Part shown: positions 5,758 through 51,140 of the stretch, piece after piece | Position numbering within the stretch: position 1 is the first letter of the stretch | Layout: each line of letters starts with the position of its first letter | Program-made: the position numbers and the translations under genes | Assembly: GCF_001465345.1 (NCBI RefSeq) | Contig: NZ_CP013655.1 | Coordinates: forward strand, 124,001 to 188,000 | Direction of reading: 5' to 3' | DNA: 64,000 nucleotides | Source: Enterococcus rotai | GTDB taxonomy: Bacteria > Bacillota > Bacilli > Lactobacillales > Enterococcaceae | The notes under the pieces: model-generated | What the model saw: only the letters and a program-made list of their open reading frames with translations | Databases searched by the model: none | Told to the model about the DNA's origin: nothing

Positions 5758-5773
5758 TTTATCTAGCCAAATA

Positions 5774-5824
5774 AAAAGTAACCCAAGTAAAACTTAATCA
5801 AGTTCTACTTGGGTTACTTTTTTT
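5774..5824. terminator. bidirectional terminator between the GNAT and Ntdp genes
   Basis: Stem AGTAACCCAAGTA pairing with TACTTGGGTTACT, plus an inner AACTT/AAGTT pair, flanked by A-rich and T-rich runs. It lies between two convergent genes and suits both. Confidence 0.85.
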
Positions 5825-5844
5825 CATTTAGCATCTTACATTGG

Positions 5845-6580: not shown

Positions 6581-6884
6581 ATTAAAAAAGTCTAGTTCTA
6601 AATAGAGCTAGACACATTTGAACCAAGTGTTCATGTTTACCGTGCAATATTTCAATCCACTAGCTCTAAACAGAGCTAGACGAACACGGTTCGGACATCA
6701 GCTGGTCAAGTGATGTATTTCAATCCACTAGCTCTAAACAGAGCTAGACTTATAAGCTGTTTTATCAAAGTTGCTATAATGAGATTTCAATCCACTAGCT
6801 CTAAACAGAGCTAGACGGCAAAACACGGCGAACCTTTCCAACTGGTCAAGGATTTCAATCCACTAGCTCTAAACAGAGCTAGAC
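6581..6884 (-). CRISPR. short orphan CRISPR array, type I-C-like repeat (4 repeats plus 1 degenerate, 4 spacers)
   Basis: Four identical 33-bp repeats lie at 6649-6681, 6717-6749, 6784-6816 and 6852-6884, with a degenerate copy at 6581-6613. Spacers are 34-35 bp (6614-6648, 6682-6716, 6750-6783, 6817-6851). Read on the minus strand, each repeat starts GTCTAG, contains a perfect 8-bp stem CTAGCTCT-GTTT-AGAGCTAG and ends GTGGATTGAAAT. Length, stem and that 3' end are those of type I-C repeats. The degenerate copy keeps its stem half and loses the GGATTGAAAT half, as terminal (trailer) repeats do, so the leader is at the higher-coordinate side. No cas gene occurs anywhere in the window; processing would need Cas5c and Cas proteins encoded elsewhere, or the array is a relic. 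Confidence 0.95.
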
Positions 6885-7049
6885 CGTGAAATTGACAAAA
6901 ATACATAACATATCTTCACCATTCCACCACTAAAACTAGTATAACATTAAATTTAAATGAGAAAAAGCTTCTTTTCCTACTAAAATCAGCAAAATTCTAG
7001 TACGAATCTCCTAGGCTTTTTATGCGCACTTGGGGTTAGCACCAAGAAA
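6885..7049 (-). promoter_or_regulatory. putative CRISPR leader
   Basis: The 165 bases between the mutY stop codon and the first intact repeat. On the minus strand they contain GGTGCTAACCCCAAGTGCGC, then AGGAGATTCGTACTAG, an AT-rich tract and a possible -10 element TATACT, before the array. The paired elements resemble, from memory, type I-C leaders. The orientation agrees with the degenerate repeat at the far end. A small CTTGG/CCAAG hairpin just after mutY could also end mutY transcripts. Confidence 0.6.
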
Positions 7050-8225
7050 TTATTCTTTTTTTCTAAATTCTTTTTTGTACAGATCTAACATCTTTTGCTG
7101 GGGTTTTGGAAAAACATAGTTTGAGAATGTTTCTTTTGTTGCCCAAGCTTGGTTTTCATTCTTAACTGTTAATCCTGTTTGACGCCCATAAAAAACCAGG
7201 ATATGCCATTTTAAATGACTGAAAATATGTGTTACTTCTCCTAAGGTTCGCTTTTGCCAAACAACTTGTGAATAATCTTCGAAAATTTCTGAATTTTCTT
7301 CAGCAACTAACAGTGGTTCTTCAAAATTAAGTGATAACTGCTGATCTTCTTTCACCCACATTTTCTGTAGAAACTCGAAGTGCTCTTTACTGACCTCTTC
7401 GATCGGGAACAACCACATATTTGCTAGTAAGCCTTTGGGATCACGCTGTTCTAGTAAAAATTCTTGTTGATTATTTTCAATGATTCCACCAATGTAATAA
7501 ACATCTTTTGGTTTCATTTTTTTTGATTTAACTGGAAAATTTGTCATCGTGTTATTTTTGTAACTCAAGCAATAAGATTGGATTGGGCACTCTTCACACT
7601 TTGGTGATGTCGGAGTACAAATACCTGAACCTAGATCCATCATTGCTTGATTAAAATCACCTGGCCGCTTCTGATCAATGATTCTATACATTGCTTCTTC
7701 AAACACTTTGCGACTACTTGGTTTGGCAATATCATCACTGATCTCAAATAAACGGCTGACCACTCGCATAACATTGCCATCGATCGCAGGCTCTGGAATT
7801 TGAAAGGCAATACTGCCGATTGCACCTGCTGTGTATGGTCCGATTCCTTTTAGTTGGCGAATTTCTTCAATGGTTTGAGGCATCTGACCATCAAACTCAG
7901 TCATGATCTGCTGCGCTGCAACTTTTAAATTTCTGGCTCTAGAATAGTAGCCTAAACCCTCCCACGCTTTCAATAAACGATCATCCGGCGCCTCAGCTAA
8001 GTCTTTGATCGTTGGAAACCACTCCATAAAACGATAATAATAATCAATTACCGTATCCACACGAGTCTGTTGTAACATGATTTCTGAAATCCAAATACGA
8101 TATGGATCTAAATTAACACGCCAAGGTAAATTTCGCTTTTCTTTTTCATACCAATTAATAAACTCTTCCTGAAAAGCCTGCAGTTCAGTAGCACTCCAAG
8201 TTTCCCAATACTTCTCATTCTTCAT
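7050..8225 (-). CDS. mutY: A/G-specific adenine DNA glycosylase MutY
   Basis: Base-excision repair enzyme removing adenine opposite 8-oxoguanine. The 391-residue protein has the catalytic Glu in EIMLQQTRVDTV, a helix-hairpin-helix LKGIGPYTAGAIGSIAF, the catalytic Asp in AIDGNVMRV and a [4Fe-4S] motif CTPTSPKCEECPIQSYC with the standard C-x6-C-x2-C-x5-C spacing. A NUDIX-like 8-oxoG recognition domain occupies the C-terminal third (YYIGGIIENNQQEFLLEQR, GLLANMWLFP, THIFSHLKWH). The ATG at 8225 overlaps the end of recX by 11 bases, so the two genes are translationally coupled in one operon. The CRISPR leader begins directly after its stop. Confidence 0.97.
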   Translation of the reverse strand: MKNEKYWETWSATELQAFQEEFINWYEKEKRNLPWRVNLDPYRIWISEIMLQQTRVDTVIDYYYRFMEWFPTIKDLAEAPDDRLLKAWEGLGYYSRARNLKVAAQQIMTEFDGQMPQTIEEIRQLKGIGPYTAGAIGSIAFQIPEPAIDGNVMRVVSRLFEISDDIAKPSSRKVFEEAMYRIIDQKRPGDFNQAMMDLGSGICTPTSPKCEECPIQSYCLSYKNNTMTNFPVKSKKMKPKDVYYIGGIIENNQQEFLLEQRDPKGLLANMWLFPIEEVSKEHFEFLQKMWVKEDQQLSLNFEEPLLVAEENSEIFEDYSQVVWQKRTLGEVTHIFSHLKWHILVFYGRQTGLTVKNENQAWATKETFSNYVFPKPQQKMLDLYKKEFRKKE

Positions 8226-16124: not shown

Positions 16125-16142
16125 GTTTTCTCCTCCTAATTT

Positions 16143-16308
16143 AAAAGCGTAGCGGGCTCGTCCAGTCTCGACTGAAAAATAGGAAAATCTGTTTGTGTCG
16201 CTTTCTGTCACAGGCAGATTTTATCTTTTTTCCGAGAGACTAGCCCGCATAGCTAGATAACATATGATAACAATGTTCCACTTCACTTCAACTTGTACTT
16301 TTCAACAT
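16143..16308 (-). repeat. palindromic intergenic repeat, copy A
   Basis: The element begins AAAAGCGTAGCGGGCTCG and ends CTTGTACTTTTCAACAT. The outer arms GCGGGCT-(5-base bulge)-AGTCTC and GAGACTAGCCCGC pair over 13 bp; an inner stem AAAATCTG/CAGATTTT pairs again. The same layout with different but complementary bases occurs at 50768-50933. It directly abuts the ribosome binding site of the PTS IIB gene. Confidence 0.8.
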
Positions 16309-50748: not shown

Positions 50749-50767
50749 AATATTCCCTCCTAAATAT

Positions 50768-50933
50768 AAAAGCGTAACGGACTCGTTCAGCTCTGACAGG
50801 AAAATAGGAAAAATCGATTGTGGTGCTTTTTACCACAAACTATTTTTATCTTTTTCCCGAAGAGCTAGTCCGTGTAGCTAGATAACATATGGTAACAACG
50901 TTCCGCTTCGCTTCACCTTGTACTTTTCAACAT
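50768..50933 (-). repeat. palindromic intergenic repeat, copy C
   Basis: Begins AAAAGCGTAACGGACTCG and ends CTTGTACTTTTCAACAT. Outer arms ACGGACT-(bulge)-AGCTCT and AGAGCTAGTCCGT pair over 13 bp; inner TTGTGGT/ACCACAA forms another stem. It abuts the TTG-start region of the M42 gene. Confidence 0.85.
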
Positions 50934-50963: not shown

Positions 50964-51140
50964 AAAAGCGTAACGGACTCGTTCAGCTCTGACAGGAAAA
51001 TAGGAAAAATCGATTATGGTGCTTTTTACCACAAACTATTTTTATCTTTTTCCCGAAGACCTTCAATCCTTGGAGCTTTAGCTCATAGGAATTGATGAGA
51101 TCGGAGCAGAGCGTAGTGCTAGCCCATGTATCTAAATAAA
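50964..51140 (-). repeat. palindromic intergenic repeat, copy D (rearranged end)
   Basis: The first 96 bases (50964-51059) match copy C (50768-50863) at 95 positions. After CCCGAAGA a different segment of about 60 bases follows, with its own nested hairpin (TCAATCCT/AGGAATTGA, GGAGCT/AGCTC), before a tail GCTAGCCCATGTATCTA like the normal end. It appears to be a recombinant or inserted copy. Confidence 0.75.

Follow-up and report, generated by a model that had tools for sequence, protein, structure and literature searches.

The array downstream of mutY

The window analysed here is a stretch of 64,000 nucleotides (C1:124001-188000) of a genome assembled as a single contig (C1, 3,746,111 bases, 99.89% complete); downstream of its mutY gene (7050..8225, minus strand), which encodes an A/G-specific adenine glycosylase, lies a CRISPR array that is carried on the same strand and has mutY as its syntenic neighbour. 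Four identical 33-bp repeats on the minus strand span positions 6649-6884; a sequence scan places the leader-proximal repeat, GTCTAGCTCTGTTTAGAGCTAGTGGATTGAAAT, at 6852..6884 and the second, third and fourth copies, each identical to the first, at 6784..6816, 6717..6749 and 6649..6681. The minus-strand spacers are all different and measure 34-35 bp: spacer 1 (35 bp, 6817..6851), spacer 2 (34 bp, 6750..6783) and spacer 3 (35 bp, 6682..6716) are followed by spacer 4 (35 bp, 6614..6648), which precedes a degenerate terminal fifth repeat (6590..6613, minus strand) with the stem retained and the 3' tail gone. At the other end, a leader of 165 bp (6885..7049, minus strand), delineated by alignment with 39 other leaders, runs from the mutY stop codon to the first repeat and carries TTTCACG at the repeat boundary; a scan of 6885-7049 for sigma-70-like promoters gave none on the minus strand. 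The locus therefore combines the characters of a CRISPR array, namely direct repeats within the 23-50 bp range, unique spacers of even length, a leader at one end and a degenerate repeat at the other.

The repeat is predicted to fold into an 8-bp stem closed by a 4-nt loop (-10.9 kcal/mol, z -3.23, equalled by 0 of 200 shuffles), which would leave a single-stranded 3' tail of 11 nt fitting the 11-nt handle of type I-C; its 3' end is GTGGATTGAAAT. A preliminary description of this DNA had reported an array of four identical repeats, with a perfect 8-bp stem, the GTGGATTGAAAT end and a degenerate trailer repeat, and all of these are borne out by the coordinates. The whole chromosome was scanned for full repeats, leaving degenerate end repeats out of the count, with a pattern in which stem and loop were left open, up to 3 mismatches were allowed and the reversed pattern served as control; since the control gave no match in 3,746,111 bases, the array is far beyond chance.

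Other elements were noted in the surroundings. Genomes of the genus each carry many dispersed copies of an intergenic element of about 110-140 bp, some of them arranged in tandem with a spacing of about 120 bp; copies lie at window positions 16131-16260, 50756-50885 and 50972-51060 and at L131:9515-9654 in a relative, and one copy sits between cas5 and cas3. A long inverted repeat at 5764-5834 of the window, probably a terminator, separates an acetyltransferase gene from a DUF402 gene; its matches to microRNA families lie below threshold and are due to chance.

Repeat type, sister arrays and spacers

The repeat is of type I-C. An array of the same repeat family accompanies all 12 Cas8c loci of the genus; eight of them have the window repeat itself as their predominant repeat, and the remaining 4/12 have a loop or tail variant. 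At one of these loci (L131, genome G009), PADLOC models recognise Cas2, Cas1, Cas4, Cas7c, Cas8c, Cas5c and Cas3 in a single operon, and six further loci (L132-L137) align with it by DNA along the operon. G009 also has, between cas1 and cas2, a gene for a protein of 297 aa (L131:3360-4253) that seems to contain a membrane segment and has no PADLOC or Pfam match; the region is present in the aligned L132 of genome G001, and alignment gaps mark it as absent in L133-L137. In Table 2 of PMC10165109, the exact window repeat is listed as DR11, type I-C, N = 2. The I-C typing of the preliminary description is thereby upheld, by the shared leader and the adjacent cas loci as well as by the published assignment. 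Its hint, given with the remark that enterococci are mostly known for type II-A arrays, that I-C would be unusual among them is only partly right: Cas8c is found in 12 of 22 genus genomes, and type I-C has been reported for Enterococcus cecorum, as the title of PMC4393107 has it, and in Enterococcus by PMC10165109. A literature search found no paper joining I-C CRISPR and E. moraviensis.

The array has no cas genes, as the preliminary description had stated when calling it an orphan, but it is not solitary. The chromosome scan found three more arrays, so that 14 repeats, all with 0 mismatches, are distributed over four cas-less arrays: the window array (C1:130649-130884) and its sisters at C1:44729-44899, whose repeat is DR10 in Table 2 of PMC10165109, C1:2248153-2248389 and C1:3574414-3574579. 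The four repeat types of the genome give the same predicted hairpin, and in the loci examined two variable stem positions are paired with their partners in 487 of 492 repeat copies (AG/CT in 380, CA/TG in 107); on this comparison of sequences, the arrays vary in sequence yet hold the repeat structure.

The position behind mutY is shared widely. All 22 genus genomes have mutY; in the mutY downstream regions of 20 relatives (a set that excludes G016), an array of at least 6 repeats is found in 11, a single repeat in three (G007, G017, G021) and none in six. Two of the sister arrays, those at 2248 kb and 44 kb, likewise have syntenic counterparts in relatives (two and four genomes compared, respectively). 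Because it is syntenic in relatives, the mutY-site array occupies an old, vertically inherited site, and a unique, newly formed array is rejected on the same ground. As a separate observation, the L132 array of G001 contains two hybrid repeats (G001:C5:80277 and 80344), in which the left stem half comes from one array type and the right half from a different one, a pattern such as recombination between arrays would produce.

One of the four window spacers matches phage DNA. Spacer 3 agrees at 31 of its 35 bases, including the first eight, with the terminal part of the portal protein gene in Enterococcus phage EFC-1 (E 2e-4) and nearly as well with the portal gene of vB_EfaS_IME197; in both phages 5'-TTC stands directly 5' of the protospacer, the motif given as the I-C PAM in PMC8406640. 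No convincing phage match was obtained for spacers 1, 2 and 4. Among one spacer from each of the other three arrays, two had no match in phages and one gave E 0.09 on 23 bases, so that one of the seven spacers searched (of 13 in the genome, six staying outside the search) has a convincing phage match. When viral contigs were scanned for exact copies of parts of four spacers, none of the four gave a match, and the best plasmid match of spacer 3 reached only E 0.3. Spacers shared with relatives were also looked for: none of the 11 spacers lying between intact repeats matches a spacer in the other genomes' loci compared, full-length matches in that comparison being confined to second copies of the same locus.

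The leader was aligned with 39 others, those of intact I-C loci among them, and matches the I-C leaders, so that what had been described as a plausible leader is a real one by comparison. Near its far end (6999..7043, minus strand), the leader alignment reveals an element made of two inverted 8-bp half-sites 29 bp apart, GGTGCTAA and TTCGTACT in the window and GGTGCGAA and TTCGCACC in intact arrays; the spacing is always 29 bp in the 39 arrays in which both half-sites were found. An RNA hairpin was considered and rejected: a pair of DNA half-sites fits better because one arm position shows an A-C mismatch in 15 of the 39 arrays. Searches against Rfam families gave sub-threshold chance matches only, and identity with an Rfam family is likewise rejected. 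The window half-sites pair at 5 of 8 positions, the lowest value of the 39 (the next lowest being 6), which makes this leader element, as read from the alignment, the most degraded of 39. Over the conserved leader columns, the four arrays of this genome have 4, 8, 2 and 6 mismatches vs 0 to 5 in 27 cas-positive arrays, on which the columns were chosen, a bias in their favour; the cas-less genomes G003 and G007 are mixed, with 1 to 7 mismatches and one leader largely deleted. The earlier view that decay is not advanced accordingly holds for the repeats, which are intact, but not for the leader element or for the arrays, which are short.

Inspection by eye also reveals the half-site pair in Isobaculum, Vagococcus and Kurthia leaders and next to cas2 in an I-C system on a Paenibacillus plasmid; in addition to the leaders of the 39 arrays, the loci recorded for it are L049, L054, L068, L070, L076 and L198:13781-13823. 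A non-exhaustive literature search found no paper on such a pair in I-C leaders. A fixed inverted half-site pair in the I-C leader, visible as far as Paenibacillus, is a candidate adaptation element.

The empty cas site and the pattern across the genus

The absence of the cas genes tested extends to the whole genome. Protein searches for Cas1, Cas8c, Cas7c and Cas5c, and thus for a cas5c-cas7c-cas8c set, returned no match genome-wide, and the six matches to the Cas3 core reach 19-35 bits vs a cut-off of 102; such matches are expected for other helicases because 14 of 14 control genomes have them too. These searches cover Cas1, Cas8c, Cas7c, Cas5c and the Cas3 core, and address class 2 effectors through the absence of Cas1. 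A hidden or divergent Cas set in the genome is rejected by the same searches. A plasmid-borne set may exist, the assembly being one contig; in a plasmid collection, no I-C set was found in any enterococcus, the nine records belonging to Lysinibacillus, Paenibacillus, Lacticaseibacillus and Monoglobus.

The chromosomal site at which relatives keep the operon is empty. G009, an example from the Enterococcus moraviensis group, shares with this genome the post-mutY array, the repeat, the leader and the conserved flanks of the cas site, but has a complete operon and 49 repeats where this genome has no operon genes and 14 repeats. The sequences that flank the cas locus in G009 are separated by 2.15 kb in this genome (C1:561907-564061), and the interval contains genes for a lipoprotein-like and a DUF308 protein together with a small toxin-antitoxin-like pair. 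The corresponding distance in G003 is about 170 bp. No cas remnant was detected at the empty site, where tblastn gave nothing better than E 0.5, and none elsewhere among the matches listed. A tract of 1629 bases that starts about 165 bp 5' of the cas3 position and runs outwards is 97.4% identical to another species (G020), and since the mutY genes of the two genomes are only 82.9% identical, this edge of the cas site is a young recombination tract. Beside the empty site, a stretch at L173:5226-7250 (C1:563225-565249) is 95-99% identical to G020; the region around it is a mosaic that includes toxin-antitoxin-like genes, and the second of the small genes there has an in-frame stop.

Across the 22 genomes, this one being among the ten that lack Cas8c, repeat number follows the operon. 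The 12 genomes with Cas8c have 13 to 82 repeats each, six without it have 3, 4, 4, 8, 14 and 38, and four have neither Cas8c nor repeats; even with these four left out, the difference is clear (Mann-Whitney p 0.0025). G003, with no Cas8c and yet 38 repeats, is an exception that counts against a relict reading, although it fits a fresh cas loss. On the mutY tree, a weak single-gene tree in which 7 of 19 inner branches are starred, the presence of Cas8c changes six times, at least three of these changes being forced by well-supported branches. The I-C operon was apparently lost recently in G003 and in this genome, and longer ago in G007, G017 and G021, which keep single repeats.

Probable loss of the operon and fate of the arrays

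Capture of spacers by Cas1-Cas2-Cas4, cleavage by Cas5c, targeting by Cascade-Cas3 and a TTC PAM are established I-C biology. The window array is a real array of type I-C and very probably one of four that a lost operon left behind, now most likely an inert relict. The comparisons show the array itself, its I-C identity, its synteny, the absence of the tested cas genes, the empty site and one phage match with PAM; what we infer beyond these is that the array once functioned, that it is inert today and when the operon was lost, and the pieces would fit together as follows. An ancestral operon, cas3-cas5c-cas8c-cas7c-cas4-cas1-cas2, located about 430 kb from the window array, would have served several dispersed arrays with a shared leader and structurally equivalent repeats, the post-mutY array among them. 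Cas1-Cas2-Cas4 would have captured spacers at the leader end; Cas5c would have cut the array transcript at the repeat hairpin, and the resulting guides would have directed Cascade-Cas3 to phage targets flanked by a TTC PAM. This lineage appears to have lost the operon along with the operon's own array, apparently recently and beside the recombination tract shared with another species, a removal that would have left four short arrays with intact repeats. With Cas5c missing, the window array is expected to be inert today, a record of earlier encounters with phages in which decay starts from the leader.

A tandem repeat or attenuator-like structure behind mutY, to which the shortness of the array, its strong hairpin and its place directly downstream of a gene might point, has a negligible probability next to this: unique spacers of constant length, a leader, long syntenic arrays in relatives, an I-C operon with the same repeat and a phage match with its PAM all speak for CRISPR, and the comparisons with the arrays, operon and leaders of relatives and with the phage target refute it. 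The date of the loss is less settled. This genome differs from G007, its nearest relative, at 52 of 404 fourfold sites, a count that takes in recX and three cas-site genes and leaves mutY out, and the leaders changed on this genome's branch since that split at 8, 9 or 16 of 159 sites, depending on the outgroup. At neutral rates 23 to 47 substitutions would be expected over the same time in the 14 full repeats (462 bases, degenerate end repeats left out), and there are none; with a single repeat counted per array the expectation is 6.6-8.5 (P about 1e-3 to 1e-4). The unchanged repeats and the young edge of the cas site both suggest a recent loss. Beside the cas site, two blocks of genes stand in swapped order both in this genome and in G007, neither of which has Cas8c; this suggests instead an older loss, with the site already broken in the common ancestor. 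Drift would then account for the repeats that this genome has kept, either spared or homogenised, and G007 would have decayed to its four single repeats, one at each of the four array types, with 0, 1, 1 and 2 mismatches to the pattern. These remnants and the derived block order agree with such a history, which is nonetheless improbable, though it deserves some weight: drift alone is very unlikely to leave 462 bases with 0 changes (P about 1e-10 or less for independent copies, about 1e-3 to 1e-4 otherwise), and the identity of 97-99% between the junction tract and G020 makes for a young edge.

The same absence of substitutions could mean that the arrays are still useful. Selection would keep the repeats, and Cas proteins would be supplied at times in trans, from a mobile element, from cas-positive conspecifics or through recombination restoring the operon; the arrays would be a standing memory, reactivated whenever an I-C operon returns. 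The gene order shared with the cas-less G007, which would make the loss old, and the recombining state of the region lend this some appeal, and it must still be judged a shade less probable than an ancestral loss. A recent, separate loss explains intact repeats more simply; the degenerate end repeats stand outside the substitution count; recombination can homogenise repeat copies, and with one repeat per array the expectation is lower. The window leader element, moreover, has degraded further than any other of the 39, and the plasmid collection holds no enterococcal I-C set. If selection did maintain the repeats, cas would be a gained-and-lost module moving over permanent, vertically inherited array sites. 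On balance the sequences suggest, without certainty, that a recent loss of the operon is to be favoured.

Arrays without cas genes are known from enterococci. The orphan CRISPR2 of E. faecalis, which PMC10165109 mentions, differs in having a type II-A, Cas9-based repeat at a different position, non-homologous to the window repeat. It is likewise a cas-less array that has outlived, or become separated from, its operon. Another close likeness is DR11 of PMC10165109, the same exact 33-bp repeat; the I-C repeats of that survey, taken as a group, come from strains with I-C cas genes, whereas all cas genes tested are missing here. The array is thus an ordinary relict of a known kind, and its value is comparative. 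The genus forms a natural series, in which the same array sites and locus-specific repeats recur in genomes where the operon is kept, recently lost or long lost; because it offers such a series, the rates at which leaders, repeats and spacers erode after Cas loss, and the return of cas, become measurable.
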